Notes under the pieces: model-generated
Told to the model about the DNA's origin: nothing
Seen by the model: the letters and a program-made list of their open reading frames with translations, nothing else
Database searches by the model: none
Position numbers and translations under genes: made by a program
Part shown: positions 213-22,630 of the stretch, in pieces
Layout of the letters: the number at the start of each line of letters is the position of its first letter
Numbering within the stretch: position 1 is the stretch's first letter
DNA from: Hexactinellida sp. DTS-2022
Lineage: Eukaryota; Porifera; Hexactinellida
NCBI GenBank assembly: GCA_028753945.1
Contig: JAPNXP010000016.1
Span: forward strand, 2,822,001 to 2,886,000
Reading direction: 5' to 3'
Length of the DNA: 64,000 bases

Positions 213-1507
213 CGTAGTTTGAGTCAGTTAGCACGCCTAATCCCCCTGAGCAAGTGCTACCATAACACTCTCCAGTATAATAGCTATCCTCTTTATTAGC
301 TACAGTATAATCGTATGATATGAGAGGTGCACAGTTAGTAGGTTCTTCTGTGCAGCCGTATAGCTGGTACTGTATGCAGTATATAGTGGGGTCTTGTGAA
401 GGGGATACTCGCCTTATCTGTTAATAGTAATATACAGTTCAAACCGGTATTTTCTAACCATTTTTTTCAGATAAAAATAGTAAGAAAAAACCGATAGTTA
501 GAAAAAACCGATGAAAAATACAGTACAGTTGGAATTTCTTACAAAAAAGATTGCATCATTAATAGTTAGAATAAAACGATAAGTTAGAATAACCCGAGTT
601 AGAATAAACCGGTTTCGACTGTATTATAAACTCCCGTTATAACTAGTAATTAATGCATGTTTACAAAATGTTTAAAATAAGGTATAATGTGTATAATGAA
701 CTCCCGTTATAACGAAATAACTGCTTATAACGAAATGTAGATTTTCCCCAGAGCACTAAATGCATTAATTATTATCCGCTTATAACGAATATCCTGATAT
801 AACGAAGGGATTTACAGGTCCCAAGCACTTCATTATAACGAGAGTTTACTGTATTATAAATCAAATTCATTTATGTCATTCTTGTAACTATAATAGATTT
901 CGTTAGTAGGAACACCAGGCGACAGTCTTAATATGTTCGTATTATCCGGAATTCATATTAACCGGAGTCACTTGCATGCATTTGTATAGCTAGGGAATTA
1001 ACCTTGTACTCCTTAATCGATATTTCGCCTTATCCGTGTTCCTATTAACAGAGTCTACTGTATGTATATATATATTTGTTGTTGTTTACTAACCTGAACT
1101 TTAGTTGCATATATTGCAGTGAATGATACTTTAACGAATGTTTTGTTTATGACACTTCTCCTAGGAATGTTGACACGTTTGTCGTTGATGATGAGTTCAT
1201 ATTCCACTAGGTCTATTTGAGATTCTATGTAGTTGCATGGGGACTTTCTATCTGTATTAACTCTGATTGCTAAACCGGTCAAATAATGTGGTTCCGTTAA
1301 TTCCAGCTCTACAACTCTCAGGCCTCCCTTTAGCATAAAGTAGTCGTCAGATCTTAAGATGGGAATTGGTGTCAGGTCGGTAGGTGTTACAAACTGGAAC
1401 TTATTTAGGGTGCCATTAGTGATTAGTGGGGAATTACAGTCCTTAACATTAACTCCGATAACTGATATTATCTGTAGGGAAAGCAATAGGAATATTACTG
1501 GTATCAT
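213..1507 (-). CDS. DDR-type discoidin receptor, 5' part (exons 213-417 and 1094-1507)
   Basis: Seen: the first exon starts at the ATG at 1507 with a signal peptide (residues 1-19) and reads to a CAG/GT donor at 1093. The second exon begins after TTAACAG at 418 in the same frame and ends at a GTAAGT donor (211-212), phase 1. Exon 2 contains YCIQYQLYGC, the end of an F5/8 type C (discoidin) domain. It then has YDYTV...GLGVLTD, matching the start of the second discoidin-like domain of animal discoidin domain receptors (GLGQLTDG in DDRs). Exon order and phases are the same as in the complete relatives at 5177 and 12142, so a third exon with the rest of domain 2, a membrane helix and a tail is expected off the window edge. 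A TATA box lies 38 nt upstream. The 676-bp intron is almost entirely transposons. Ligand unknown; collagen binding is only a possibility from DDRs. Confidence 0.72.
433..623. repeat. MITE family F (CAGTTCAAACCGG ends)
   Basis: Begins TACAGTTCAAACCGG and ends CCGGTTTCGACTGTA, flanked by TA. Inverted internal copies of a TAAGAAAAAACCGA-type motif. Related copies at 24494-24652 and 43509-43662. Confidence 0.75.
690..853. repeat. MITE family C (AACTCCCGTTATAACG ends)
   Basis: Inverted-repeat element with GAACTCCCGTTATAACG on the left and CATTATAACGAGAGTTTACTG on the right. A partial second left end lies at about 625-650. Copies at 24311-24460, 33805-33955, 59533-59680 and 59698-59841. Confidence 0.7.
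893..1062. repeat. MITE family A variant (AACACGGATAAGG type)
   Basis: Element with AGTAGGAACACCAGG on the left and GTGTTCCTATTAACAGAGTCTACTG on the right. It belongs to the CTCGTTAATAGGAACAC variant of family A, also at 2114-2448, 6274-6430 and 47338-47405. Sits in intron 1 of the minus-strand receptor. Confidence 0.65.
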
Positions 1508-1544
1508 CTTTGTAAGAATATACTGTTTATTCTATTAAAACTCT

Positions 1545-1552
1545 CTTTTATA
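1545..1552 (-). promoter_or_regulatory. TATA box of minus-strand receptor
   Basis: TATAAAAG on the minus strand, 38 nt before the ATG at 1507. The other receptor and small membrane-protein genes of this cluster have similar elements. Confidence 0.6.
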
Positions 1553-1675
1553 GATTGCAATGAAAAAGCTGAGTCATTTCTTTGTTATAGCTATTCTATT
1601 GTATTAACTAAATGGAACTGATACTGAAAGTTAATTGTGGTTTGTTCTTTGTTAAAAGTGCACACAGATTAATCA

Positions 1676-4160
1676 TCAGAATATATATTTACACATAAAT
1701 GAATGTTTAACTATTTCTTTCAGTTTCAGTCTCAGACTACTGTCCTCTTTCAGAATGCCACTCAACAGCTCTATGGCCTGACGGGACAATTTCTCCGGGA
1801 TCTTTAACTCGGCTCGTATCTGCTTAACCAGGTTCCTAGCACTGTTCCCATCGAAGGGGAGACATCCACAGAGCAGGGCGAATAGGATAATGCCGCTGCT
1901 CCACACATCAGCTGCTCTCCCGTCATAAGGGACGCCCTTTAGGATCTCGGGACACGCGTAGGCAAAGGAGCCACACGAAGTGCTAAGCATTATGTCTCTC
2001 TTCCTAACAGATAATGTGTGATAACAGGAATAGGTATAGCCTTATAGGTATAGTAATACGTAGCTGTGCTTATTATAGTTAGGTATTGTGATAGTAAATG
2101 TTGTACAATAGTCTCGTTAATAGGAACACGGATAAGGGAAATATCGGTTAAGGAGTACAAGGTTTAATTCCCCTAGCCTATACAAATGCATGCAAGTGAC
2201 TCCGGTTAATACGAATTCCGATTAATACGAACAGGGTTTCATCCAGAAAATTTCCTTCGCGCCTAGATTTAGTTTGAATTTGCTCACAAGAGCTTAAATT
2301 ATTAAATTTGTATTGCGTCTATGGGAGCATCTCTTGATTTTCCCGAGGATAGAAAAGTTTTGTTCAAAATAATGCGCTTGGATGAAACCCTGGTATGAAC
2401 AAATTTGATGGTCCCCTGGTGTTCCTATTAACGAGAGTCTACTGTATGTTGTTGTGTGTTGTTTTATTCCTAAATGTTGTATATTGCTAGTGTTTTCAAG
2501 CACATCTACGTAATACACTAAATGAAAACGAAAGTTAATTACAGTCGTTTAATATAATGATTAAATAGTTAATTAATCATCAGCAATATTCTCATTAATT
2601 GATTGCATAAATTCTTACATTTCTGGAAAAACATAACTTTCAATTTCCATGTCTACTTCTGATTCAATCCTTAGTTAAAAGGAAATTATTAAGGATTACA
2701 AGAAATATTATATTTTCCGTTGTGAATTCTTTCGATATTACTTTGGTATCATCTACCTGGTTACTAGACAGGTATATTGGAATTATTATAATTAGTTCTT
2801 ACATACATTGTATTTGTCCTGTACCTTACATCAACACATTATGTTATTAGTTCTAATTAAGTTGCATACAAAGGTGAAATAGTTTAAGTCATATAAAAGG
2901 AAATTTCCCAAAACTAACACAAATCCTATGCAAATATTATATGAACATATTAAGTAATAAGATTCGTTATTTGAGTCCCAAAGGGACAGTTCAAATGTTA
3001 CGTGACGCTAACAAGGGTATAGGGGGTAAACTAATATGTGACAGACCATCCTTTTTATTTTACAAACCGGTGAAAAATCGTGACATAGGTAAGGAGTGGG
3101 ATAATTTTCGGAATTTTTGCTTTTTAATTTCAGCAAAGGAATAATAAAATTGCTATAAAATAATAGAAAAATTGCTTTAAAAATAAACAAGAAATTTCAG
3201 TGAAAAATTAATTTATTGTATTAGTTTAGTTCCTATAATAATTCTATTTACATCTATTCTATAACTTGCTATTAGTCTTACTACATATTGTAATTACTTA
3301 TGTACACATTTATTGTAAAATTTTCAGGCATTTGCAGAATCTTTTCTTGCAACATCAACAATTAACCTTTGCAAATTCGGGTTTTCATATTAAAAGGTTT
3401 TGACCGGTATATAAATAAGTTAAATATTTTGTATGTAAACTCACATATTGATTGCAAATCCAAAGTCGGTTATTTTCACTTTAAGTCCTGGGTCCAACAG
3501 AATATTCTCACACTTTAGGTCTCTATGAGCAATCCCATTGGAATGCAGATATCTGAGAGCTTCTACCATTTGTGAATATATGAAACAACTCACTTCCTCC
3601 TTTTGAGGTCCTTTCTTATTAATGAAGTTTAATAAATCTCCATTTCTAACAAGATCCATAACCAAGTATACTTTAGAATCACTTTCAATTACTTCTCTTA
3701 CACAAGTTAAATTTGGATGGTTTAACTTCTTTATAATCTCAATTTCTCTCGGTAAGAATTTTGTTGAGAAATCTATTGGAGTTTCTTTAACTTTTATTAT
3801 TTTAATCGCGACTTTTTCACCGGTTTTTCGACATCGAGCCATTCGTACTTTGGCATATGTTCCATGTCCGATAATGTTATATAAATCGTATCCTTTGTTC
3901 TTGTCTCGCAATTGAATATTGTTGCACATTTGAGAAATATTTGAGTCGAGTTTGCTTCCATTCTGTTTGTTCGATAAATCGAATTTTTGAATTATAGAAA
4001 TCATTTGATAAAGTATAAAAATAAATAATTGAATCTTAAGATATGAATTAAAATAATTTGTTTTGCTTTTATAGTTTTCGTTGTCTGCATACTCTCTGTC
4101 GAACCAATCAAAACCCGAAAATCCCATTGGTCCATATAACCTCAATAATCCATAATACAT
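1676..4160 (-). CDS. TSSK-type serine/threonine kinase (exons 3445-4160 and 1676-2003)
   Basis: Predicted 347 residues. Seen in order: glycine loop GHGTYAKV, VAIKII lysine, HRDLKCENILL catalytic loop, DFGFA, then across the intron CGSFAYACPEIL (activation and APE segment) and YDGRAADVWSSGIIL. HRDLKCEN, DFGFA and CGS.AYACPE are hallmarks of the testis-specific serine kinase branch of the CAMK group. All catalytic residues are present, so it should be active. The donor at 3444-3443 (GTGAGT) and acceptor TGTTAG at 2004 join in phase 2 to give NMKRDIM. The N-terminal 90 residues before the kinase are unlike TSSKs and contain a hydrophobic stretch; an internal methionine (MISIIQ, about residue 53) is an alternative start. 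In animals TSSKs act in sperm formation. No functional link to the flanking receptors is shown beyond proximity. Confidence 0.85.
2114..2448. repeat. Nested MITEs inside TSSK intron (family A variant interrupted by family K)
   Basis: A family A variant (left end CTCGTTAATAGGAACAC, right end GTGTTCCTATTAACGAGAG) is interrupted at about 2236-2391 by a second fold-back element. That insert has ends GGTTTCATCC / GGATGAAACC and the internal string GCGCCTAGATTTAGTTTGA. The inserted family also occurs at 15829-16000 and 22188-22365. Confidence 0.65.
2520..3440. other. Rest of TSSK intron; contains MITE family I (2970-3125)
   Basis: AT-rich intron sequence. 2970-3125 holds a fragment of the element whose copies carry GTTCAAATGTTACGTA...GTGACATAGG (15493-15650, 17390-17550, 21855-22008, 23740-23892). 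The open frames here come from that repeat. Nothing else recognised. Confidence 0.55.
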
Positions 4161-5134
4161 ACATGTTCAATAGTCAAAAGTTCATAAATGCATTCAATTA
4201 ATTTATTATTTTCAAATATTGTTCCATAATAGTGTACAGTATTTCCCCGAATAAGCACCCCGGCGTTATTGTTTTCATGGACAAATTTACACTTAAATTC
4301 CTATGAAAAATCCAGAAAATAATATTTTTAAGTGTATACTAATTTTATCATACAAACGCCACTTGAATTGACCCGACGCTTATTCAGTGAAAAACTGTAG
4401 TATACTTACTATATACGTAGTTCACTCTGTTTAATTAAATATTCCAAGTAATTCCTTACTCTTATTTCGTAATGATGATATCTAAATGTAATGTGACCTC
4501 GTAGCAATAATTTATAGGTTAATACTTATTAATATTAGTATTGTTGAAAGCCATAATAATAATATTAAACGTATTAATCTAGCCACAAATATAGTATGGC
4601 ATAATCGTAATAGACAATTGATTGGAATTTGGCATATACCTGACAAAATTTGGTAGATTTATGAATTTATTTTATTGATTAATTTGTTTAATTAATTTTA
4701 TTGGGTTTTGATTAAAATTATTGTTAGAATTGGTTAATTTTGTCTAATTTAAACTAATTGTGTATAATTAACATTAGAACATTCAATTAAATGCTTTTAA
4801 TTATGGAATTTACGCATTCCAAAGTTCAATAAGTGTGTCAAATTATCAATGAAATTAACTTGAAAATTAAGAAGATTAACTTTCACTAAACGATGTATTT
4901 GGTGGTTCAATATAAACTTGATAGTAGGTGTAAGTATAATGTTACATAAAAGAAAAATGTTGTGTGTGACATTGTCTGTTAATTATAATAAATCATGCAA
5001 ATAACATGCATTCATATTAAAATTCATATTCAAATTCATAAATATTCATTCAATTATGCATATTCGGGGGAAAAGAATTCGGTAAATAAATTGCAGGATC
5101 AACAAAAAAATTGATGTTAAGTTAGCCATTAGAG
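4161..5134. other. Divergent intergenic spacer, no gene seen
   Basis: Lies between the divergently transcribed TSSK and receptor genes. Very AT-rich. A short imperfect inverted repeat at about 4238-4402 (GAATAAGCACCCCGGCG and CCCGACGCTTATTC) could be another degenerate MITE. Confidence 0.45.
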
Positions 5135-5140
5135 TATAAA
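5135..5140 (+). promoter_or_regulatory. TATA box of receptor gene DS1
   Basis: TATAAA in the context AGAGTATAAATTG, 36 nt before the ATG at 5177. Confidence 0.55.
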
Positions 5141-5176
5141 TTGTAGATTTTCTTCAAATTTCATTAACTTAAAATT

Positions 5177-7865
5177 ATGATTTCAGTATTTGTATTTGTG
5201 TTATTTTTGCCATTAATTCAAACACAGTATGCCTCCAAATGTAATATTCCAATTTTGAAATCCTGGATTTTAAATCAAAATTTTGTTGACTATCGATTTC
5301 CAACCGATTCAGTTTCTGTGATAGATAAAAATCAGAATTTATTGACACCTTTTGATAGTTCAAAATTCCCATTTTGGAAAGATTTTGGATCAATATGGAG
5401 AATCACAAAAATGAAAAACTTTATTGAAATCCAATTTACAAATCCAATTTTGATTTCAAGTTTTTCGATCACATCTTGTACGGAAATTTCAGGGAATTGT
5501 ATGCCAAATAACCCCAACACAAATTCAGCATACACATTTGATTATAAATTAACGGAAAATGGAATGTTAAATCGCCTAAAACCTGTACATTTCCCGAATG
5601 GAAATATATTTATTGAAAATGAAATCGATGGCCTACCAACAGAAATTAGTTTCAAACCGATTCAAGCAGAATCAATTCGGGTATGTTGTTGTTTATTTCT
5701 ATTTTGTATACAAAGTTTATAGTGTTTTTGTTTGTGTTTAATAATTATACCCATTTTTAGAGGAATAAAGTCCTAAATATTCAATGAATTTATGATTAGT
5801 AATACAGTAGAACCTCGTTAGTAGAACACAGTTAATACGAACACTATTCAGTCCCCTTCAAAGCCTTTCCAATACAAATAACATTGGTTAATACGAATTC
5901 CGGATAAGGCGAACGCATTTTGACGGTCCCCTGGTGTTCGTACTAACGAGGTTCTACTGTATGTTCATTTATTTGTTTATTTATTTTGTTTATTTACTTG
6001 TAGGTGACAAAGAAATATTCTGTTTCAGACACAACAAACGCGAATTATTTCATGCAATTAGAGATATTTGGATGTTCAAATTTTCCACAAAATATCGTTT
6101 CACTTAATCCAAACATATTGCATTATGATGTGAAACCTAGCTTTACATTGCCTGATGCAAATGCATTGATGCATGGCTTGTGTACTCATTATGGGTGTAA
6201 TGGGTTAACTGATACACTCATTGATGGAATTATAGGTCAGTTCAAAATAAATACACATTAAAACCTTTTTAAGGTAGATTCTCGTTAATAGGAACACCAG
6301 GGGACCGTCGAAATATGTTCGTATTACCCGGAATTCGTATTTATCGGAGTTACTTGCATGCATTTGTATAGGCTAGGGGAATTTAAACTTTGTACTCCTT
6401 AACAGATATTTCCCTTATCCGTGTTTGTACTATTTGTATATGCAACTATATCTAGACCTGAAATTATTATTCAACAGTGTTTAAAACCAATATAACAATG
6501 ACATATTATAGAAGGAATTTGCTAACATATGAATTTATTGTACGTGTACACAGTCAGGTTATTTTATTATTAATATTCAAGGAAGAATATTGTGTCATAA
6601 TAAAGAGACTTTATAATAAGCGAACTCACTTAATACAAACCCTATGTAAGTTGTTAAATTGGGACCATAGGGCTTGTTCATTTATAAATTCAAATTAAGC
6701 AGACGAAAAATTGTTCACAATAAGCAGAGTAATATTCTTATCATAATTTCCTGTCAATTCCTAGAACTTTTATATTTATTCTATTTTTATTTTAGTTATT
6801 GATTCATCTTTCACTCGAAATTCCCAAAATATAATCAAATGGAATAACAACGGTATAAACGGACAGAATATATTTGTCAAACTATATTTTAACGGCGATT
6901 TCCAATTGAATTACTTGGTTATTCATTCTATTTATGATGGAAATAACAGGATTTGGACACCAAACGTGTTTATAAATGGAACAAAACAAATTGAATTACA
7001 TAACAAGGCATCATATGGTACATCGCATGCAATATTTGAATTAATTGGCGACACAGACAATCAATTAATTATAGAATTAACAGTGAAACATGATGTGAGT
7101 CTAATTATATCAGAAATTGAAGTGTTTGGAATACAAAAAGTTACACAAAACAACAATAATTCGTTTGAATTCGGTGAACAAAATATTCAGTTGTTTATAT
7201 CTTCTATTTATTTCACAATAACTTTAGCCTTAATTATCCCACTTCTAATTTCTGTTGTTGTTATTTGTTTCCGATTGAAAAGACAAACTCTTTATCTACC
7301 AATTCAACAAAACTCAAATAATTCAAACTACTCACATATTTTCAATTCAAAAGAAATATTACGTTACAATGAACAGTCAAATAATTCAAATTCAAGAGTG
7401 ACATCATATGACCCTTCAGAGATAGTTCCAATTGGAACTGAAACTAACTTAAAGAGACTCGACACAGATGTCCTTAATAATATGTACGAACGTATACCCA
7501 CCCTTATAACAGGTCAGGAATCTTCTTTAAGAAAATCTAACAAATATAAACACAGTCAAATTAAAGAGCCACAATCCCAAACTGGAACTGAAACTAACTT
7601 CCCCGTTTATAGTATGCCTACAAAGAAGAATAAACCTGTATCTCATGATGGGTATTTGGAACTAAGGCATATGAGTGTTGAGGGTCGTATACCCACTTTG
7701 GCAACACCTCAAGATGACGATCCTTATTACGATTATGTTCGTCCAATTTCAGCCGCTTTACAAGTACAAGGTTGTTCTAAGGAATCTGTTAATGAGCCTA
7801 ATCACCAATATTTGAATACTAAACAAGTTCCTAATTATGTTAATAATACCAATACTGCACTATAA
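5177..7865 (+). CDS. Kinase-less DDR-like receptor DS1 (exons 5177-5680, 6004-6235, 6796-7865)
   Basis: Predicted type I membrane protein of 601 residues. Signal peptide at 1-16. A discoidin domain runs to about 188 and ends LEIFGC. A second DDR-like domain (LHYDV...NGLTDTLIDG) runs to about 360. One membrane helix at about 378-403 is followed by basic FRLKRQ and a 200-residue tail. The tail has no kinase but carries tyrosine motifs: YLEL (Y532), PYYDYV (Y556/557/559), YLNT (Y584) and YVNN (Y593). The last two fit the GRB2 SH2 consensus pY-x-N. Splice phases 0 and 1 match the paralogue at 12142. Known: DDRs couple the same ectodomain plan to a tyrosine kinase. Inference: this receptor depends on a kinase in trans, or on partners, for signalling. 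Intron 1 holds a family A MITE, intron 2 a family A variant and a family E element. Confidence 0.8.
5803..5961. repeat. MITE family A, full copy in DS1 intron 1
   Basis: Starts TACAGTAGAACCTCGTTAGTA and ends ACTAACGAGGTTCTACTGTA; about 160 bp, palindromic, TA ends. This is the commonest repeat in the window. Confidence 0.85.
6274..6735. repeat. Family A variant (6274-6430) and family E MITE (6547-6731) in DS1 intron 2
   Basis: The left element carries TCTCGTTAATAGGAACACC and the inner CTTGCATGCATTTGTATAGG. The right element starts CAGTCAGGTTATTTTATT and has ACTTAATACAAACCC, as in the family E copies at 37428-37629, 51328-51516 and 58127-58328. Confidence 0.65.
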
Positions 7866-7959
7866 ATTGGTGTAGAAATTGTTAGTTGTTTGTTTTATTT
7901 ACTTTTGAATTAAAATATTTGTGTTGATTTGCCCTAATTTGATTTTAAGAAATTATTTA

Positions 7960-8090
7960 TACAGTAGAACCTCGTTAGTAGGAATACCAGGGGACTCTCA
8001 AAATGTGTTCGCCTTATCCGGAATTCGTATTTACCAATATCATTTGTATTGAAAAGGCTTTGAAGGGGACTGAAATAGTGTTCGTACTAA
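7960..8090. repeat. MITE family A, right end missing
   Basis: Begins TACAGTAGAACCTCGTTAG and stops after GTGTTCGTACTAAGG, without the right terminal repeat. Lies just downstream of DS1. Confidence 0.7.
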
Positions 8091-8278
8091 GGTCAAAATT
8101 AACGTATATATGTTAGCTTTCTAATGTAATTTAATGAACTTATATAACATGAAAATTCACTTTTTCGAAACAAATTTTGTATTGGAAAAGTATTGACCTA
8201 AATATAATTAAACTTTTGATATAATAAGTTTTTTGTTTATTTGTTTGTTTGTTATAAATATACATATGAATATACATA

Positions 8279-8782
8279 TTATACAACACTAATTTCATTG
8301 CATTCATCAGTAGAAGCACATTCTGTAACAGATTCCAATGTGTAAGAATATTTGTTTGTTAGAGCATTCATTTCTTGATAAGTACTTTCAGTGCTAACTG
8401 ATTTGTTTAATAATTTATTTCTTTTCTCTTTTAATTCAATTTCTGAATGAGTATCGAGGGACATTGGGTTTATTATTAGTGTATTGTTAATTTTTGGATG
8501 AATTCTTTGGTTTTCAATCATTCCTGCAGGGTTTATTTCTGAGTATATTGTTCCGTCTCTTTCAGATCGATGTCTCCTAATTGGAGTTTTGATTATTTCC
8601 TCCTTTTTCTTATATTTTTTTCCAAAACAATAACAAACAACACAATTACAAACACAACATAATAATGTTATTATTAATACACACAAGAAAACAGGGATTC
8701 CTATTTGAAGAATGTATTTAACTGGGATTAATAAAATTGCATTTGTAAATGTTTCGTTTGAAAAAGTTATAATTTCAACCAT
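8279..8782 (-). CDS. Small single-pass membrane protein TM-A with tyrosine-motif tail
   Basis: 167 residues, one exon. The N-terminal 20 residues hold one glycosylation site (NET). A membrane helix at about 27-52 ends in a Cys-rich run and a strongly basic stop (KKYKKK). The 110-residue tail has TIYSEI (Y80), STYQEM (Y135; pYxxM, the PI3-kinase p85 SH2 consensus) and KYSYTL. No known domain and no family recognised. The size, helix and tail plan is repeated in the next two genes on the same strand, which makes them look like a diverged tandem family. Inference: a membrane adaptor, like vertebrate DAP-type or ITIM-bearing chains. Transcribed towards DS1. No TATA box is obvious. Confidence 0.62.
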   Translation of the reverse strand: MVEIITFSNETFTNAILLIPVKYILQIGIPVFLCVLIITLLCCVCNCVVCYCFGKKYKKKEEIIKTPIRRHRSERDGTIYSEINPAGMIENQRIHPKINNTLIINPMSLDTHSEIELKEKRNKLLNKSVSTESTYQEMNALTNKYSYTLESVTECASTDECNEISVV

Positions 8783-9378
8783 TTTACAAATTTGAAATTT
8801 GAATTTAATATCCGAACAACAGATTTTGTATAAGTATTAATGCATATTTAAGTTTCCGTAAGCTTTTTGTAATTAATTCTGAATTTTCTGAATTTAATCT
8901 TTACCTGTAAACCAAATTCCTATTATTCTACAATTGTGCGGTTATTAATTTAGCTTAGTGAACATGATATATTTCTTTGGAATTATTATGAAACTAACTT
9001 TGTATACGTGGTATATTATATCATTTTATATTATTTGATTATGTATTGAATCTAAATATTTAAACTTATAAACCTATGCCATAATTCAACCAAATACATT
9101 GAATTGATTTACGTATTTCTAAAGTAATTTTGGACGAAATTAGAAGTTTTGTTTGTAGCAATTTTTAAACGAATTTTATAATGAAACTAATAATATTCAA
9201 GTATACACAAGTAAGTTATCCATATTTGGAACTTTTCATTAATATTTAAAGAATTTGTTAATAATTACAATTAAAAAATTATTTATTTATTAATTTCATT
9301 CTCAAATGTAATTCAATCAATCATTGAACAGAATTTAAGCTAAAAAGTGAGTATTTATTTAGTATCCATGGTTATTGT
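8783..9378. other. Spacer, nothing recognised
   Basis: About 600 bp of AT-rich sequence between two small membrane-protein genes. No MITE ends and no open frame of note. Confidence 0.5.
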
Positions 9379-9897
9379 TTAAATAATACTCTCATAATGA
9401 TGGCTTGAATTAGTATGTAGTGAATAGATATCTTTCCTTGCTACATAATCGTATGGATATTCATCTTGTTCATATACCTGGTTACGTGACTGGTAGTTTG
9501 GAATGTGGTTTATTTGGTTGCGATTTTCTGGTAAAGTTAATGTCTCGTATAATGTTTGACTGTTTGCTATTATGGAATAGTGTACTTGTATATTTGTTTC
9601 AACTCGATTTCTGTTGTTGTTGTTGTTATTGTTGTTGTTATTTATCCCACAATTTTGGTTGGAATAAACAATATAAGTTTTTGTGAATTTATTGTCCATG
9701 TTTTTACAAAGACAATAACAACAACAAACTACAAAAAAGATTGAACAAACACAAAATGTAATTAGAATAAACAAAATGGTTAATATATACCATTTATCAT
9801 TTTGTAAAGTTTGTAATACATTATTTTCTTCAAAAAAATTATTACATGAAACGATTGAAAATAGAAAAAAAATTATAAACAAGATCTTACTATCCAT
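9379..9897 (-). CDS. Small single-pass membrane protein TM-B with ITIM-like tail
   Basis: 172 residues, one exon. Signal-peptide-like N terminus (1-18), about 17 extracellular residues, helix at about 37-63 ending FFVVCCCYCLCK. A ten-residue Asn run (86-95) is encoded by AAC/AAT repeats. The tail is unusually rich in tyrosines: VHYSII (Y107, exactly [IVL]xYxx[ILV], an ITIM), TLYETL (Y117), YEQD (Y142), YPYDYV (Y149/151), IYSLH (Y158), HYESII (Y168). DYPYDYV-type sequence is shared with DS1 and TM-C. In vertebrates ITIMs recruit SHP phosphatases; whether that applies here is inference. Family not recognised. Promoter has a clear TATA box. Confidence 0.62.
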   Translation of the reverse strand: MDSKILFIIFFLFSIVSCNNFFEENNVLQTLQNDKWYILTILFILITFCVCSIFFVVCCCYCLCKNMDNKFTKTYIVYSNQNCGINNNNNNNNNNRNRVETNIQVHYSIIANSQTLYETLTLPENRNQINHIPNYQSRNQVYEQDEYPYDYVARKDIYSLHTNSSHHYESII

Positions 9898-9929
9898 TTT
9901 TAATTATTTATGAGAACAATTATTGTTCC

Positions 9930-9937
9930 TATTTATA
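9930..9937 (-). promoter_or_regulatory. TATA box of TM-B
   Basis: TATAAATA on the minus strand, 32 nt before the ATG at 9897. Confidence 0.6.
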
Positions 9938-10208
9938 CTATATAACTTAATCATTTGACTTTACATAATGTCTTAAATTATTCTTTTGATTTACATTAAA
10001 TTTAAATATTACCTCATACAACAATGTATTCTAGAATTTGTCTTTTCTAATTCAGTTTTGTTAATGAAATATTGATTTGTATTAAAATAAAATATTCCAT
10101 CATATAGTGCGAGTTTATTTATTTGTATTTATTGGGTTCAAAAATACAAATAATTGTAGAATTATAATTCCCGATTTTGCCCCACGAAAACTTGAGTGAT
10201 AAATAGAC

Positions 10209-10369
10209 TACAATAGAACCTCGTTAATACGAACACGGTTAATTCAAACACAATTTCAGTCCCTTTCAAAGCCTTTTCAATACCTTTGTTATTAGTTATT
10301 ACGAATTCCGGATAAGGCGAACACATTTTGACGGTCCCCTGGTGTTCCTACTAACGAAGTTCTACTGTA
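10209..10369. repeat. MITE family A, full copy
   Basis: TACAATAGAACCTCGTTAAT ... AACGAAGTTCTACTGTA, intergenic between TM-B and TM-C. The rest of 9898-10590 is AT-rich with no gene. Confidence 0.8.
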
Positions 10370-10590
10370 TTTCCATAAATTTAAACAACAAACACATATA
10401 TTAACATGATTATTAATCCAACTAATTTCCAATTTTGAATAAAACAATCATGATTTATAGCATAATCAATGAAATATTTTGTAATAAGAAATGGTTTCAA
10501 AAGGAATTAGCAAATATGTTTAAATAGCAATGTATTTAATAATACATTTATTCAAGTTATTTAACAAATTTGAGGTAAACCACCTGCTTA

Positions 10591-11112
10591 TTAAGGATTA
10601 GTTATAAATTCTTTAAACTTGGGAGTAGGATTATTAACAACATAATCGTACACAAAACTCTGGGTGGCTTCGCTTGCATTATTGTTTGTGTTTATTTCCG
10701 GATTAGATTGAGTTGGTTCGCATTCCTTAGGTGTTAGTTGGTTGCTAACTAAAGATATCTCCGTATTATTCCTTCCGAGTTGACTGCAAATTGTATCGTA
10801 TTTGTTCGATTCTTCAATTTGAGAAATTTGAGAATTTGGATTCAATATTTGTTTCTGAAGTTTATTTTTGCAAAACAAAGATCCATTTGAATAATAACAT
10901 TTTGTTTTTGGAAGATTTTTTGATTTCTTAAAGCAACAATATAAACAAGAACAAGAACAACAACAACATAATACACAAATAAGACAACATATTATGTTAA
11001 CAATAAATACCCATATGGAAATATAAAACCAAGTTTCCTCCAGAAAATTTGTGGAACAATTTGATTGACTACCACATTCAATTGGATTCATGAGACATTT
11101 AAAATTAAACAT
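10591..11112 (-). CDS. Small single-pass membrane protein TM-C with YDYV tail
   Basis: 173 residues, one exon. About 28 extracellular residues with three cysteines and an NCS site. Helix at about 29-52 runs into CCCCSCSCLYCC, a likely palmitoylation zone. The tail has KYDTI (Y105) and FVYDYVVNN (Y155/157). The YDYV core recurs in TM-B and DS1. No signal peptide is evident, so it may be an N-out protein without cleavage. No known domain; grouped with TM-A and TM-B by size, layout, strand and adjacency rather than by overall sequence similarity. Confidence 0.6.
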   Translation of the reverse strand: MFNFKCLMNPIECGSQSNCSTNFLEETWFYISIWVFIVNIICCLICVLCCCCSCSCLYCCFKKSKNLPKTKCYYSNGSLFCKNKLQKQILNPNSQISQIEESNKYDTICSQLGRNNTEISLVSNQLTPKECEPTQSNPEINTNNNASEATQSFVYDYVVNNPTPKFKEFITNP

Positions 11113-11147
11113 TGTTATTTACGAATATATTTTGTTGTTTTGACTGC

Positions 11148-11155
11148 TATATATA
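11148..11155 (-). promoter_or_regulatory. TATA box of TM-C
   Basis: TATATATA on the minus strand, 35 nt before the ATG at 11112. Confidence 0.5.
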
Positions 11156-12095
11156 TTCAAATTTATTTTGTGGGTATGACTGTATATATACACGTATTTG
11201 TAGGTTGTTTTTACTGACATAAACAAGAAATTAATTAAATCACATGGCATACGAATCAATAATTCCTAAGCAATTTTAATTCTCTGACTTTTAGATTTGC
11301 ATTTGTGTGCATATGTAAGCTTAGTTACATAATACTTCCCAAAGGATTTTTAATTTTAGATTAAGCTTATATCACTTTCAACTTTATTCAAATAGTAATT
11401 ACTTAATTTGTAAGATTAATTTTTGCGGGTAATTAATTTCATGTGATATTGAACTCTGTATTTATAATCTAGTATTGCATAATAGGAACTGAAATTATGT
11501 GATTAATATGTAATTCTGGCGCTTAAAATTAGAAGGATATTTTTTATTGTAAGCATAATTAATTTATGCACCATTTAGTAATAATAGTATTTAGCGCGTA
11601 GATACTCAAATATTATTCAATATGAATAAAGGTAATAACAACAAATTTTATAAAATTTATGATTGCAAAATAACTATAAATGTTATAAAATTTCTGAATT
11701 GAGGCAAATATGAACAAATTATATAAAATTTATGAATAGAGGTAAATAACAACAAATTTATAAAATTTATTAATTGAGATAAATAACAACAAATATTATA
11801 TTTTTCGCACAATGGATGATATTCTCTCTCTGGAAATACCACATTCCATAGTTCCATTTATGATGTAGTAATTAGAGTGGAAACAGGTGTTACATAATGA
11901 TTTCAGTTCCATAAGTAACTTAATTAATCACATATAATTAATTGGTCATCCTATTCTTATCAAAAGTAATTCAACACTTCATAAAATGAACTCTCAAATC
12001 CATTCAATGGATGTAATAATACTAATAATGCATTCCATTGTAAGCTTATGGTTGTCAGGGAAATGACATGATACTGTTGACAAAGTCATTTCTAC
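11156..12095. other. Divergent spacer between TM-C and DS2
   Basis: No gene. Contains a short tandem degenerate AT repeat (ATAAATAACAACAAAT type) at about 11630-11800. Two GGAACTGAAA matches lie at 11485-11494 and, on the minus strand, 11901-11910. Confidence 0.45.
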
Positions 12096-12102
12096 TATAA
12101 AT
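12096..12102 (+). promoter_or_regulatory. TATA box of receptor gene DS2
   Basis: TATAAAT, 39 nt before the ATG at 12142. Confidence 0.55.
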
Positions 12103-12141
12103 CTCAATTAATATTCTCCCAACCCAATATTTCAAACTCAA

Positions 12142-15029
12142 ATGCAGGTTTTTTTCTTGATTTCAATTCAATTTATAATCGGAACTTTGGGCTATAGCGA
12201 TATTTGCAACCAAGAATTGTTTAATTCTATTTTGAATAAATCACAAGAAATTATAAATGAAACAGTAAAGAATTCGAATTTATTCCAACTCGAAAACTCA
12301 ACTTATACTCTCCCACATATTTCTCAAAATAATTCATTCTGGGTACTACACATAAATGAGGGTTTAACAATAAATCTTAAAAATATTTATGGGTCAAGAT
12401 TCATAATAACTGGCATTGCAATTAACCAAATTCCTCCACAAAACGAGCTGCTAAGAAATAAGTGTGTAACATATGTTGATTACGGAGATTCACAAGAATT
12501 CTTAATCCGGTACACAGTAGCTAGTTTCAGTTCCAATTTGGTGTCAGGATATTCCTCAGATGGTTTGTATGTGTTTAACGGTGTGGCTAGATATATTGAT
12601 GTTTCTGTTAAGCGAGCATTTAACCCAACTCTTTCTGATGCAATCGAGGTAAGTTCCTAAATATTATGTCTGCTAATCAGGGTATATTTGATATATCTGA
12701 TTTGGTTTGATGGAATTTAGTGACAAATTATTTGGTTTTAAATGATTTGAAATCTCAAATTATGTGATTTGAGCAAAGATATATTATTTATTTATAACCC
12801 TGTTGTTGATATGCTTTCTCTAAGAAAATAGCTGTGAAATTTATTTTTCCGGATTTTAAGATTAATTTTAATTTATTCTAGTTAGGTACTATTTATTTTT
12901 TCCAGCGGTGAATTTATTATTCATAATTCTTTTTGAAAAAATGACAATTTATGTTGACTTTATTATTTCTCTGATTGAATTCTGATTTGTTTACAGATTA
13001 CAAAGGCGTCTAACAACGACAACAACGACAACAACAACAACAACAACAACAAACTCCCTTATTGTCTCCGTATAGAACTATACGGCTGTTTAGAAAGAGA
13101 CATAATAAGCCCTTTAACATATCCTACAATTCTATTCTACGATTTTCCTAACTCTATAGAAGGAATAATAACAGGTCTCTTCTCTGCTGATTATGCGTAC
13201 ACTGGAATATGTTCTGGCTTGTATTGCACTGGAGGGAATGGGATGTTAACTAATGGAGACATAGGTAAGATATTTATTCTGTAAACAACAACAACAATAA
13301 CAACAACAACAACACAATAAATATTTGCTTTTACATTTTAGTGAACTTTTCTAAAAACAACAAAAACAAAACATTAAATATTTGCTTTGATATTTACCAT
13401 AACCTTTGCAAAAAAACCAATACAACAACAACAACAACAATAACAATAGATATATTCGCTTTGACATAAAACTTCGCAAAATATAACGACAACAACAAAA
13501 ACAACAATTAATATTTTCTTCCATATTTTCCATATTTAGTATACTTTGCACAAATATAACGACAACAACAACAACAACAATTAATATTTTCTTCCATATT
13601 TTCCATATTTAGTATACTTTGCACAAATATAACGACAACAACAACAACAACAACAAAAATATATTTGACATGTTTTACAACACTTTCCTTCTAACATTTC
13701 AGTGTACGCCACTTTAATTATAGCATATCGGCCACATTATAATCTCACACTTTAGGTCTCCCCATGCCTACATCCCAGAATACTATTTCGCTACACTCCT
13801 CCTCGAGATGCAAACTTACTTTCTACTTCAGTATCCTTGCTAACATTAGTTCCATACGACTGTATGGGGCGATTGGAATGTATGGTACTGTGATGTCATA
13901 CCCACCCTATAGTGTAGCAATACAGAACGAAACTACAGTTACATACGACCCGAGTAATGGCATAGAACTTCATACACAAATTGGGAATAATTCCTATCTT
14001 ATTGAGATACAAACGCCCATTAATCTTGTTGGGGAAATAACATTGGAATTAAGAGCTTATGTGTCAACAACATTATTGCTTAACGAGATACAGTTAAGGA
14101 ATGGAAATATCATATTAAATACACTAACACAGGAACTAGAATTCGGAAACAGTTATAATGAAACTACTCAACTCACTAGTCAAACAACAAATGATTCAAT
14201 TCCTATAAATGATCAATTTCTTACAAATGAACCATTTCTTACAAACCCACAACCAACAAATGACCCAATTCTTACAAACCCACAAACAATAAATGATCCA
14301 ATTCTTACAAACCCACAACCAACAAATGATCCAATTCTTACAAACCCACAAACAACAAATGACCCAATTCTTACAAACCCACAAACAACAAATGACCCAA
14401 TTCCTATTAATCCAAATCCAAATCCACCACCCCCACCTACACCAAATCAACCGGAACCTGATACAAACCTAGGTTCCTTTATTATCACAGACCCCACTTT
14501 TCTAGAGACCGATTTCCCCCCAACTATTCCCTTAACAGAGGAGCTATTCAATCTAGCCTATCCGTCTACTATAGTATCTATAGCTATATGCATTCTCTGC
14601 ATGCTAGTCAGTTGTGTTAGTCTATTTATAGTAACGGTATGTTGGTTCTTCTTATTGAAGTACAAACTGAGATATGACGAGGTTAAGAAGGAAGTTACTA
14701 AATATAGAATCACTCAAGAGGTGTTAGCCAAAAACACTAATTTAAACAGCTGTCAACTTTCTGAGTATCCGAAGGAAAACACTTTCAAACGAAATTGGCC
14801 ACAAAATGAAATTATGCCACCTCTGCCACCTAATAATTGGGTTCCGGATTCTGAAATTTACGCAGCAATTCCCGCTGAAACATTTGAACAAGAAATGAAT
14901 CGTTACATAACACCTAATTATGATAATTCAATTGGAAATACCATTGTTACAATGCCGTTGTCAAACAGTTCCCATAATTTGGTGCCAATGAGGGAAGATA
15001 GTTACATGGCCATGTCACCGAGTAAATAA
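12142..15029 (+). CDS. Kinase-less DDR-like receptor DS2 (exons 12142-12648, 12997-13264, 13756-15029)
   Basis: Predicted 682-residue type I membrane protein. Signal peptide 1-17. The discoidin domain is interrupted by an Asn/Asp run (NNDNNDN...) at the start of exon 2 and ends LRIELYGC. The second DDR-like domain (LFYDF...GGNGMLTNGDIG) continues into exon 3. A Thr/Asn/Pro stalk has five 11-residue repeats of the TNDPILTNPQ type plus PPPPPTP. Membrane helix at about 529-559. The tail has PPLPP (SH3-type), EIYAAI (Y627), NYDNS (Y647, pYxN) and SYMAM (Y675, pYxxM). Exons 1 and 2 have the same phases as DS1. The exon 3 acceptor is uncertain: the pyrimidine-rich CAG at 13702 would end translation within about 20 codons, so the weaker TTTAG at 13755 was chosen. 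An AATAAATAAA signal lies at about 15091. Confidence 0.76.
13480..13670 (+). repeat. Tandem repeat in DS2 intron 2 carrying acceptor-like TTTAG
   Basis: Units of about 75-80 bp with CATATTTAGTATACTTTGCA followed by (ACA)n and TTAATATTTTCTTCC. Two near-identical units and one older variant. The intron also has several AAC/ACA trinucleotide runs. An identical copy lies at 19872-20062 in the duplicated segment. Confidence 0.7.
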
Positions 15030-15135
15030 TTGGGATTTTATTTATTTTATTATTTATGTTTATAATTGTGTATAAAGTATAAATTGTGTGAATAAATAAA
15101 GTTTGAAAAATATTTGTGCCAAAAAATTTAGTATT

Positions 15136-15311
15136 ATAGTATAACCTCGTTAGTACGAACTCAGTTAATACTAAATTCCGGTTAATACGAACACTATTTC
15201 AGTCCCTTTCAAAGCCTTTTCAATACAATTGATATTGGTTTTACGAATTCCGGATAAGGCGAACGCATTTTTACGGTCCCCTGGTGTTCGTACTAACGAG
15301 GTTATACTGTA
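15136..15311. repeat. MITE family A, copy downstream of DS2 (duplicated at 21495-21670)
   Basis: TATAGTATAACCTCGTTAGTA ... TACTAACGAGGTTATACTGTA, about 176 bp. Confidence 0.85.
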
Positions 15312-15345
15312 GTAAAATATATGCTGGTCATTACAATAACATATA

Positions 15346-15812
15346 AAACGTGTGAATTGCCGTATAATTATATGAAGTAACGCTACTGAATTGTTGGATT
15401 GGGGAGGATTGCCTTAAGTGTGGTTTAACAGGTCTGTCATAAGAATAGTTCCGAATCGTATGACTCTAGAGCTCTGTAATGACCAGCTATTTTAGGGCCC
15501 GTACAAACGTTATGTAACCCTTCTAAGGGGAAGGGGTGTCAACCAATGTGTGACATCCTTTTTATATTAAAAACAGGCCAAAAGGCGTCACATAGGGAGG
15601 GGGTCTAATTTCCTGAAACTTTGAGTTACATAACGTTTGAATGGCCCCTTTATTTATTAAATATAAGAATATCAAATGTCTAGAGTCATTCGATTCGGAC
15701 TAATCTCACGACAGACCTGACAAACCACACTTTTAAGGCAATCCTCTCAATCAAATTATCTAGTAGCGTTACTTGATATAATTATACGGGAAATTCACAC
15801 ATTAATTCTGAT
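15346..15812. repeat. Large fold-back element (family J) with a nested family I element
   Basis: Arms of about 130 bp (GTGTGAATTGCCGTATAATT on the left, AATTATACGGGAAATTCACAC on the right) flank a family I element at 15493-15650 (GGGCCCGTACAAACGTTATG ... CATAACGTTTGAATGGCCC). A second copy lies at 21705-22160. Confidence 0.75.
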
Positions 15813-15828
15813 ATGCAATACCACCAGG

Positions 15829-16260
15829 GTTTTTTCAGGCAAAATTTTATGTCAAAAATTTTTTAAAATTTTTTACTCGCGCCTAGATTTAGTTTGAGCT
15901 AGCTCACACACGTCCAAATTACTATTACATGATTGGCAGCATCTCTCGATTTTCGCGCGCCTAGAAATTTTTCTTAAAAAATATACGCGCCTGGATGAAA
16001 TCATATCTTATAACAGGGCCGTAGCACCCAAACCGGCCGGACCGGTTTTTGCAAAAAGTCGACTGCCCAATTCATGCAAAACCAGTGTCCTTTGTGAGGG
16101 TGAAGTTCGTTTTTCCCGTTGAGCTTTACTACTCATATCTTTGATGATTCATTAGCACACCATTCTGACCTTATTCCTTTGATTTCGTTTAGTTATGGAC
16201 TAGGGACTTATTCACTGTAAGTTGTAAGTATTATTGAGCCTATTGAGTTAAAAAAAAAAT
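15829..16260. repeat. Family K fold-back (15829-16000) and an A-tailed repeat (16013-16260)
   Basis: The first has GCGCCTAGATTTAGTTTGAG and ends CGCCTGGATGAAATC. The second starts AGGGCCGTAGCACCC and ends in a run of A, which is compatible with a retroposed 3' end but has no recognised tRNA boxes. Both are repeated at 22188-22615. Confidence 0.5.
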
Positions 16261-16268
16261 CAATATAA

Positions 16269-17925: not shown

Positions 17926-17963
17926 TTAGTAAACTAACATATAACAGTAAACTATTTAGTAAA
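17926..17963. other. 38-nt spacer of the inverted repeat
   Basis: Its reverse complement follows the third p24 copy in natural order at about 24262-24299, so the spacer belongs to the right arm and the left arm is joined on at 17925/17926. Confidence 0.85.
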
Positions 17964-19620: not shown

Positions 19621-21388
19621 CTGGAGGGAATGGGATGTTAACTAATGGAGACATAGGTAAGATATTTATTCTGTAAACAACAACAACAATAACAACAACA
19701 ACAACACAATAAATATTTGCTTTTACATTTTAGTGAACTTTTCTAAAAACAACAAAAACAAAACATTAAATATTTGCTTTGATATTTACCATAACCTTTG
19801 CAAAAAAACCAATACAACAACAACAACAACAATAACAATAGATATATTCGCTTTGACATAAAACTTCGCAAAATATAACGACAACAACAAAAACAACAAT
19901 TAATATTTTCTTCCATATTTTCCATATTTAGTATACTTTGCACAAATATAACGACAACAACAACAACAACAATTAATATTTTCTTCCATATTTTCCATAT
20001 TTAGTATACTTTGCACAAATATAACGACAACAACAACAACAACAACAAAAATATATTTGACATGTTTTACAACACTTTCCTTCTAACATTTCAGTGTACG
20101 CCACTTTAATTATAGCATATCGGCCACATTATAATCTCACACTTTAGGTCTCCCCATGCCTACATCCCAGAATACTATTTCGCTACACTCCTCCTCGAGA
20201 TGCAAACTTACTTTCTACTTCAGTATCCTTGCTAACATTAGTTCCATACGACTGTATGGGGCGATTGGAATGTATGGTACTGTGATGTCATACCCACCCT
20301 ATAGTGTAGCAATACAGAACGAAACTACAGTTACATACGACCCGAGTAATGGCATAGAACTTCATACACAAATTGGGAATAATTCCTATCTTATTGAGAT
20401 ACAAACGCCCATTAATCTTGTTGGGGAAATAACATTGGAATTAAGAGCTTATGTGTCAACAACATTATTGCTTAACGAGATACAGTTAAGGAATGGAAAT
20501 ATCATATTAAATACACTAACACAGGAACTAGAATTCGGAAACAGTTATAATGAAACTACTCAACTCACTAGTCAAACAACAAATGATTCAATTCCTATAA
20601 ATGATCAATTTCTTACAAATGAACCATTTCTTACAAACCCACAACCAACAAATGACCCAATTCTTACAAACCCACAACCAACAAATGATCCAATTCTTAC
20701 AAACCCACAAACAACAAATGACCCAATTCTTACAAACCCACAAACAACAAATGACCCAATTCCTATTAATCCAAATCCAAATCCACCACCCCCACCTACA
20801 CCAAATCAACCGGAACCTGATACAAACCTAGGTTCCTTTATTATCACAGACCCCACTTTTCTAGAGACCGATTTCCCCCCAACTATTCCCTTAACAGAGG
20901 AGCTATTCAATCTAGCCTATCCGTCTACTATAGTATCTATAGCTATATGCATTCTCTGCATGCTAGTCAGTTGTGTTAGTCTATTTATAGTAACGGTATG
21001 TTGGTTCTTCTTATTGAAGTACAAACTGAGATATGACGAGGTTAAGAAGGAAGTTACTAAATATAGAATCACTCAAGAGGTGTTAGCCAAAAACACTAAT
21101 TTAAACAGCTGTCAACTTTCTGAGTATCCGAAGGAAAACACTTTCAAACGAAATTGGCCACAAAATGAAATTATGCCACCTCTGCCACCTAATAATTGGG
21201 TTCCGGATTCTGAAATTTACGCAGCAATTCCCGCTGAAACATTTGAACAAGAAATGAATCGTTACATAACACCTAATTATGATAATTCAATTGGAAATAC
21301 CATTGTTACAATGCCGTTGTCAAACAGTTCCCATAATTTGGTGCCAATGAGGGAAGATAGTTACATGGCCATGTCACCGAGTAAATAA
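19621..21388 (+). pseudogene. 5'-truncated copy of receptor DS2
   Basis: Starts inside exon 2 (last 36 bp, 19621-19656), then intron 2 and exon 3 (20148-21388). It lacks the signal peptide and the whole first discoidin domain, so no receptor can be made from it. Exon 3 is intact and differs from 13756-15029 only by one fewer 33-bp stalk unit (four instead of five). It could be the real 3' end of DS2 on the other haplotype. Confidence 0.8.
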
Positions 21389-22630
21389 TTGGGATTTTAT
21401 TTATTTTATTATTTATGTTTATAATTGTGTATAAAGTATAAATTGTGTGAATAAATAAAGTTTGAAAAATATTTGTGCCAAAAAATTTAGTATTATAGTA
21501 TAACCTCGTTAGTACGAACTCAGTTAATACTAAATTCCGGTTAATACGAACACTATTTCAGTCCCTTTCAAAGCCTTTTCAATACAATTGATATTGGTTT
21601 TACGAATTCCGGATAAGGCGAACGCATTTTTACGGTCCCCTGGTGTTCGTACTAACGAGGTTATACTGTAGTAAAATATATGCTGGTCATTACAATAACA
21701 TATAAAACGTGTGAATTGCCGTATAATTATATGAAGTAACGCTACTGAATTGTTGGATTTGAGAGGATTGCCTTAAGTGTGGTTTAACAGGTCTGTCATA
21801 AGATTAGTTCCGAATCGTGTGACTCTAGAGCTCTGTAATGACCAGCTATTTTAGGGCCCGTACAAACGTTATGTAACCCTTCTAAGGGGAAGGGGTGTCA
21901 ACCAATGTGTGACATCCTTTTTATATTAAAAACAGGCCAAAAGGCGTCACATAGGGAGGGGGTCTAATTTCCTGAAACTTTGAGTTACATAACGTTTGAA
22001 TGGCCCATTTATTTATTAAATATAAGAATATCAAATGTCTAGAGTCATACGATTCGGACTAATCTCACGACAGACCTGACAAACCACACTTTTAAGGCAA
22101 TCCTCTCAATCAAATTATCTAGTAGCGTTACTTGATATAATTATACGGGAAATTCACACATTAATTCTGATATGCAATACCACCAGGGTTTTTTCCAGGC
22201 AAAATTTTATGTCAAAAATTTTAAAATTTTTTACGCGCACCTAGATTTAGTTTGAGCTAGCTCACACACGTCCAAATTACTATTATATCATTGGCAGCAT
22301 CTCTCGATTTTCGCGCGCCTAGAAAATTTTCTTAAAAAATATACGCGCCTGGATGAAACCATAACTTATAACAGGGCCGTAGCACCCAAACCGGCCGGAC
22401 CGATTTTTGCAAAAAGTCGACTGCCCAATTCATGCAAAACCAGTGTCCTTTGTGAGGGTGAAGTTCGTTTTTTCCCGTTGAGCTTTACTACTCATATCTT
22501 TGATGATTCATTAGCACACCATTCTGACCTTATTCCTTTGATTTCGTTTAGTTATGGACTAGGGACTTATTCACTGTAAGTTGTAAGTATTATTGAGCCT
22601 ATTGAGTTTAAAAAAAAATTCAATATAAAA
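19621..22630 (+). repeat. Segmental duplication, copy 2
   Basis: Partner of 13229-16268. Includes duplicated MITE families A (21495-21670), J with I (21705-22160) and K (22188-22365). Confidence 0.9.

Follow-up and report, generated by a model that had tools for sequence, protein, structure and literature searches.

The window analysed here, a stretch of 64,000 nucleotides from the sponge Hexactinellida sp. DTS-2022, covers C8:2822001-2886000 (contig JAPNXP010000016.1; C8, C15, C1, C11 and C14 are contig labels) of a genome of 112.4 Mb in 18 contigs. It holds three membrane receptor genes, DSX, DS1 and DS2, whose ectodomains resemble those of the discoidin domain receptors (DDRs), and three genes for small membrane proteins, TMA, TMB and TMC (together TMA-C). 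Both groups had been singled out in an earlier reading of this DNA, the initial annotation.

Gene models were built from open frames and GT-AG sites, and splice-site fit decided among several open options. DS1 (plus strand) has three exons: exon 1 (5177..5680) encodes a signal peptide and the discoidin (DS) domain, exon 2 (6004..6235) the end of that domain and the start of the DS-like domain, and exon 3 (6796..7865) more of the DS-like domain, a transmembrane helix and a 192-aa tyrosine tail up to the stop, for a spliced product of 601 aa. DS2, on the same strand, also has three exons and a spliced product of 682 aa: exon 1 (12142..12648) gives signal peptide and DS domain, exon 2 (12997..13264) the CLRIELYGC junction and the DS-like start, and exon 3 (13756..15029) DS-like domain, repeat-rich stalk, transmembrane helix, 121-aa tail and stop. 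On the minus strand, DSX exon 1 (1094..1507), an open frame with a GT donor in phase 0, encodes the signal peptide and most of the DS domain, and exon 2 (213..417) the DS end and DS-like start. The initial annotation had called DS1 and DS2 the two complete genes; both are, and so is DSX (536 aa), since its exon 3, with the transmembrane helix and tail, was found left of the window (C8:2820470-2821461, minus strand). Hydropathy gives each of the three receptors a signal-peptide-like hydrophobic start and one further transmembrane helix, their introns fall at matching places in phases 0 and 1, and all three tails reach a stop without a kinase.

The small genes are single exons on the minus strand. 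TMA (8279..8782, 167 aa) has a Cys-rich helix and a tail with TIYSEI and STYQEM; TMB (9379..9897, 172 aa) has a signal-peptide-like start, a Cys-rich helix and 11 tail tyrosines, one of them in YDYV; TMC (10591..11112, 173 aa) has a very Cys-rich helix and again YDYV in its tail. These frames read as had been described, with little ectodomain, a Cys-rich helix and YxxM, YDYV and ITIM-like (immunoreceptor tyrosine-based inhibitory) motifs. They had also been described as interleaved among the receptors; they do belong to the locus but are not dispersed in it, all three sitting together between DS1 and DS2.

The receptor family and its DDR identity

A cluster of three receptors had been reported. 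The cluster is present and larger: C8 carries six DDR-type receptors within 38 kb (C8:2798672-2837029), the other three, DSY, DSZ and DSV, lying left of the window on the minus strand. The third exon of DSZ is interrupted, and this gene may be damaged or may have an extra intron. The genome search for more such genes that the initial annotation had proposed found members on four other contigs. DS2 as query led to C15 (4.116 Mb, DSU), C1 (0.727 Mb, DSW) and several places at C14:0.10-0.11 Mb, and DSX as query to C11 (14.158 Mb, DST), a single open frame with transmembrane helix and tail and no introns. On C14 five DDR-type genes stand in a row (G1-G5, C14:93105-112874), kinase and kinase-less genes alternating: G2 and G4 continue into tyrosine kinase exons, and G1, G3 and G5 do not. 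A tandem repeat of more than 2 kb lies between G3 and G4. The family thus has at least 14 members, 12 of them without a kinase (six on C8, three on C14 and one each on C15, C1 and C11), and since the DS2 and DSX queries each retrieved part of the set, divergent members may be missed.

Introns at matching places, in phases 0 and 1, fit 11 of the 14 members; G3 and G5 could not be settled, and DST has none. For five of the 11 (DSV, DSU, G1, G2 and G4) no other phases were admitted when the models were built, so that they are consistent with the pattern and not independent evidence for it. A CX4C motif precedes the GGxGxLxDG of the DS-like domain in six of the seven C8/C15 members, the seventh, DSY, having CX6C; the six C14/C1 members and DST have neither. 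We take the motif as the putative mark of one kinase-less branch, and group the C8 and C15 members because it is common to them. A tree of 13 ectodomains (the seven C8/C15 and the six C14/C1 members) leaves the C8 members at open forks on long branches, so it gives no order of duplication beyond two pairs on C14.

The C8 members are only 17-26% identical to each other in the ectodomain, and we compared them with known structures as profiles. Profile A1 (DS1, DS2, DSX and DSY), searched against 177,635 distinct PDB sequences, had a single match at E up to 10, human DDR1 (4ag4, E 0.035), in an alignment that crosses the CLRxELYGC junction into the DS-like domain. Profile A3, with the C1 member DSW and DSZ added to make six, matched 4ag4 at E 5e-6, at the DS/DS-like junction. 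Its list comprises six entries, among them two non-significant DDR entries (DDR1 8pe9, E 0.24; DDR2 2z4f, E 2.1, over a short stretch) and three unrelated ones (E 1.2 to 9.3). DSW alone again found only 4ag4 in the PDB (E 0.01). In Pfam, the DDR DS-like family (PF21114) gave E 3e-4 with this member, which does not reach its curated cut-off; it ranks third among 17 families listed below theirs, and the two ahead of it cover the stalk and helix region. In the available text of PMC2807035, the DDR2 disulphide Cys30-Cys185 is described as joining the two ends of the DS domain. Both terminal cysteines are present in 10 of 13 members, DSX, DS1 and DS2 included; neither is found in two, and one only in DSY.

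Several observations weigh against a DDR assignment. Single C8 receptor sequences matched no DDR or discoidin family in Pfam, so it is the profiles, together with the C1 and C14 members, that justify the DDR name. Genome scans with F5_F8_type_C found four other places and with PF21114 one, the C1 member (E 0.26), none of them in the window. The DDR2 collagen contacts given in the portion of PMC2807035 that we could consult (Trp52, Asp69, Arg105, Glu113 and Cys73-Cys177) were looked for by eye, at about 20% identity to the human sequence; none was recognised, even in the two DDR kinases, and collagen may therefore not be the ligand. The two-discoidin fold, moreover, is predicted from sequence. 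The comparison with profile models that had been suggested thus came out both ways: single sequences and the two family scans were negative within the window, and the family profile found DDR1. The claim that the three genes share a DDR-type, two-domain (DS plus DS-like) ectodomain is borne out by the A3 match, and we consider the assignment supported for DSX, DS1 and DS2 at the level of sequence comparison.

Kinase exons and tyrosine-motif tails

A kinase profile made from G2, G4 and one Eph-like kinase found no tyrosine kinase exon in the 104 kb around the C8 cluster. It matched only a Ser/Thr kinase gene (window 1676-4166, minus strand, match at 3444-4166; TSSK-like by our reading of the sequence), which shares its strand with DSX and lies upstream of it, the wrong place to supply DSX with a kinase. 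On C14 the profile matched six exons; it matched nothing near DSU or DSW (10 kb covered). A genome scan with PF07714 (146 matches, Ser/Thr kinases among them; 143 of 391 candidates scored) likewise had nothing near the C8 cluster besides the Ser/Thr kinase. The claim that the tails end without a kinase holds, given the stop in exon 3 and the failure to find a tyrosine kinase exon in the 104 kb.

G2 and G4 are true DDR kinases. The kinase domain of G2 has 12 PDB matches at E 1e-50 or better, 11 of them to DDR1 or DDR2 (best 8e-69). For that of G4, these make up 11 of the first 12 of 20 matches (best 1e-70), the top match being a chain labelled EGFR, with no single stretch passing. Each of the two has a kinase-less sister: G1 pairs with G2 (85% ectodomain identity, starred 100/100) and G3 with G4 (59%, starred 99/99), and with these starred branches the kinase label must change at least twice on the tree. 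Because the DDRs of animals are kinases, the changes were probably losses, and the kinase-less state was likely derived by loss of kinase exons.

Unless G1 and G3 splice on, the kinase-less trait arose more than once. At the position where G2 and G4 leave exon 3, both sister genes still have a splice donor, good in G3 (GTGAGC) and weaker in G1 (GTAGTT), so the kinase exons of their neighbours might be used; G1, moreover, is encoded on the strand of G2 and precedes it by about 0.7 kb. G1 and G3 could then be alternative ectodomains spliced into the kinase exons of G2 and G4, with only the other members truly kinase-less. We judge this unlikely, if a serious candidate, as both genes also read on to a stop. 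It would in any case not extend to the rest of the family: the 104 kb covered around the C8 genes offered no splice option into a tyrosine kinase exon, and no such exon is obvious for the one-frame C11 gene.

Motif counts in the tails of all 12 kinase-less members (that of DSZ up to the end of the sequence piece) were compared with 3000 shuffles. Yxx[LIVM] is found 44 times where 16.9 are expected, 2.6 times chance, a count reached in 0/3000 shuffles. The excess is also seen in the six C8 tails (20 vs 9.3, 1/3000) and in DSX, DS1 and DS2 (11 vs 5.1, 17/3000). Two controls, 14 other likely exons of the window hand-picked from long frames (26 vs 28.8) and the 13 family ectodomains (50 vs 53.0), have no excess, which places it in the tails. 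Within the 12 tails Yxx[LIV] is the commonest class (34 vs 14.6), and YxxM (10 vs 2.5, 0/3000), PxxP (22 vs 11.9, 4/3000) and ITIM-like motifs (11 vs 5.0, 40/3000) are also in excess. YxN is not (6 vs 6.3), and in a pool of four C8 receptors, TMA-C and DSW it again stands at chance (7 vs 7.1) beside Yxx[LIV] at 20 vs 9.5. The initial annotation had read the tails as bearing pYxN and pYxxM SH2-type motifs. Tyrosine-motif tails they are, but both named motifs are at chance level in DSX, DS1 and DS2 (YxN 4 vs 2.9, YxxM 1 vs 0.7), and we rejected the notion of Grb2-type YxN tails.

The predominance of Yxx[LIV] leaves room for a quite different role. This motif suits AP-2 as well as SH2 sites, and the receptors could serve adhesion, endocytosis or clearance, with YxxPhi motifs as AP-2 sorting signals and no phosphotyrosine signalling. 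The enrichment of YxxM and PxxP in the 12 tails fits SH2 and SH3 domains better, and we give the sorting role little credence. That counterpoint is itself qualified by the six C8 tails taken alone, where neither motif is significant; for YxxM (3 vs 1.1, 259/3000) this also tells against our own signalling interpretation.

As to where the tails come from, those of G1 and G2 are clearly homologous (z 14.5), including a DPYYE site. The DDDPYYDY of the DS1 tail is similar, which may be chance; YDYV is found in DS1 as it is in TMB and TMC. Ten of the 12 tails measure 99-217 aa (G1 has 56, DSW 47), and excerpts of PMC4332414 give 142-170 residues for the human DDR juxtamembrane region. On the strength of the G1/G2 homology and of the lengths, the kinase-less tail is probably the former DDR juxtamembrane region, an origin that we extend to the C8 tails by inference.

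The nearest known parallels are DDR1d and DDR1e, in which, according to the part of PMC4332414 available, the kinase is wholly or partly missing and which are predicted to be inactive; a decoy role is suggested for them in the accessible text of PMC10785288. As far as these sources go, they share with the sponge receptors a DDR ectodomain and transmembrane helix and the lack of a working kinase. They differ in being splice forms of one kinase gene, whereas each sponge receptor is a gene in its own right, with a motif-rich tail that ends in a stop of its own. By analogy, the sponge receptors could be decoys or dominant negatives that bind the ligand or pair with DDR kinases and damp them, as DDR1d/e may do, their tails mattering little; that each C14 DDR kinase adjoins a kinase-less sister suits such a role. 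The 2.6-fold excess of tail tyrosine motifs is hard to explain in that way, and at 13-24% identity between C8 and C14 ectodomains the pairing of C8 receptors with C14 kinases is doubtful. We consider the decoy role rather improbable.

Small membrane proteins and neighbouring genes

TMA, TMB and TMC each have a CXXC at the membrane (putatively palmitoylated), seven to 11 cysteines in the helix region, and 5, 11 and 5 tail tyrosines, respectively; the motifs of the three include VHYSII besides those given above. Yxx[LIVM] stands at 8 vs 3.9 in their tails (74/3000 shuffles). In the available text of PMC2803307, transmembrane adaptors are characterised by a short ectodomain, one helix, a CXXC at the membrane and several tail tyrosines, and the CXXC palmitoylation motif is named for LAT, LIME, NTAL and PAG. 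Going by that text, TMA-C have the same layout as LAT, LIME, NTAL, PAG, SIT, TRIM and LAX. They differ from LAT/PAG-type adaptors in their far higher Cys content and in matching no Pfam family above cut-off, which leaves them without homology to LAT, PAG, SIT or others by this measure. Genome searches with TMB and TMC returned only the queries themselves and otherwise matches at E 0.02 or worse (TMA was not searched, nor were the other receptor loci for small proteins). TMC matched Eph-like receptor kinases on C1 weakly (E 0.02-0.04), through their Cys-rich helix, which we put down to composition.

The initial annotation had likened the locus to immune receptor/adaptor complexes, with ligand-binding chains and signalling-only chains. 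DAP12, CD3 and FcRgamma pair through opposite charges in two transmembrane helices. The helix cores of DS1, DS2, DSX, DSY, TMA, TMB and TMC contain no D, E, K or R, and so give no support to DAP12-type pairing, which we rejected; TMA-C look more like LAT/PAG-type adaptors than like DAP12. A common origin of TMA-C and the receptor tails was also rejected: the similarity of the best pair, DS2 and TMA, is reached by 7-26 of 8000 shuffles (TMA/G5 by 34 of 8000) and fails correction for 105 pairs. TMA-C are tied to the receptors by position and motif style, and any functional link would be conjecture.

These results bear on the possibility that the locus is an array of immune or self-recognition receptors with dedicated small adaptors, the earlier interpretation. 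Six strongly diverged receptors on long branches, beside Ig-domain genes and LRR-EGF receptors, would suit it, as would the layout of TMA-C, reminiscent of transmembrane adaptor proteins, and the hint of shared origin in the DS2/TMA similarity before correction. Set against these are the uncharged helices, the loss of that similarity on correction and the lack of clear relatives of TMB and TMC in the genome (none better than E 0.02). We find such an array very unlikely, and the analogy with immune receptor/adaptor chains did not survive. Nor did the proposed self-contained phosphotyrosine module, since the genome encodes the two DDR kinases, many other kinases and SH2 proteins outside this locus.

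Among the receptors left of the window stand five single-exon frames that look related (L005 75-677, minus; 1812-2264, plus; 3496-4125, minus; L006 6284-6904, minus; 8707-9222, plus). The three minus-strand frames matched Ig families above cut-off; the two plus-strand frames had no match at E 0.001 and by eye resemble one Ig domain. One frame compared with the PDB matched a phage tail protein (E 1.5e-15), an Ig-like domain protein (E 4.5e-12), MALT1 (E 1e-5) and CEACAM6 (E 0.001). Roughly 30-40 kb left of the window are two membrane receptors, each in one frame, whose short tails are almost the same (L032 950-2824, plus; 6614-8581, minus), the first matching LRR (leucine-rich repeat) and EGF families and the second judged by eye. 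Elsewhere, L047 and L048 (C1:16.37 and 16.57 Mb) are one-frame receptor kinases, by eye Eph-like with a C-terminal SAM domain and with a Cys-rich membrane region. Among five cathepsin exons read, the active-site Cys position has Ser in one (L056, C1:17465719-17465838, GSCGSSWAFS) and Gly in another (L058); the Ser resembles the state in sponge silicatein.

Within the window a second copy of DS2 (19621..21388, plus strand, 97% identical) comprises the end of exon 2, intron 2 and exon 3 and lacks exon 1 and most of exon 2; it is either a truncated duplicate or an assembly artefact. It belongs to a direct duplication (4.7 kb, 97%) of DS2 from the exon 2 end plus a p24-like gene, at window 13229-24260, where there is also an inverted repeat of 3.35 kb (16269-19620, 99.4%); recent duplication and assembly artefact are again the two options for this region. 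Introns and intergenic DNA also contain scattered copies of a short repeat (window 894-1040, 5796-5961, 7953-8090, 10209-10382, 15128-15316 and others), which measure about 75-180 bp, are 77-95% identical and have TTCGTTAGTAGGAACAC-type ends; the family is likely a miniature inverted-repeat transposable element. GC content was 31-42% across eight genome stretches measured.

Kinase-less DDRs as putative co-receptors

DSX, DS1 and DS2 share with DDR1 and DDR2 a DS plus DS-like ectodomain, a single transmembrane helix and a long, tyrosine-bearing cytosolic juxtamembrane region. They differ from them in that the C8 receptors have no kinase domain, in the CX4C or CX6C of the C8/C15 members and in their unrecognisable collagen contacts. 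We favour, with a confidence slightly above even, the interpretation that they are lineage-expanded kinase-less DDRs acting as co-receptors that are phosphorylated in trans. Under this proposal, true DDR receptor tyrosine kinases would have lost their kinase exons to give the kinase-less family. A receptor sensing its ligand would cluster through its ectodomain and transmembrane helix, perhaps with the C14 DDR kinases, and a DDR or Src-type kinase would phosphorylate its tail in trans. Human DDRs dimerise independently of ligand via the transmembrane region, as stated in the excerpts of PMC4332414 that were available, and mixed complexes with G2 or G4 would thus be allowed. Phosphorylated Yxx[LIVM] sites could then dock SH2 proteins (SHP2, PI3K or Src type), some of these sites possibly being AP-2 sorting signals, and TMA-C may serve as LAT/PAG-like phosphotyrosine scaffolds in the same membrane. 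The genome has 62 SH2 matches, and for fibrillar collagen (COLFI) one clear match and one weak.

DDR genes as such are not new to sponges: the parts of PMC6485061 at hand say that DDR orthologues exist in sponges and ctenophores and that DDR and Eph genes are known in sponges. The DDR kinase family is listed as emerging in bilaterians, after its FA58C domain, in the available portion of PMC8662651. Kinase-lacking splice isoforms of DDR1 are already known. What appears to be new is a multi-gene family of kinase-less DDRs, of which we found no report in those parts of the open-licence PubMed Central (PMC) literature that were accessible; an earlier description is possible.

In a bolder extension, for which we claim only a low probability, an early animal would have divided up a family of receptor tyrosine kinases, giving rise to many genes for sensor chains that have phosphotyrosine tails and no kinase, some of them beside a kinase sister, with LAT-like scaffolds in the same locus. 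This would be an independently evolved receptor/adaptor system, built from DDRs and analogous to vertebrate immune receptors.

DDRs have been described as kinases, and here 12 of the 14 members found are without one, their orphaned tails rich in docking motifs and not decaying. The family offers a testable case of how a receptor kinase may turn into a co-receptor or scaffold, and of whether an immune-like receptor/adaptor logic may have arisen outside the vertebrates.

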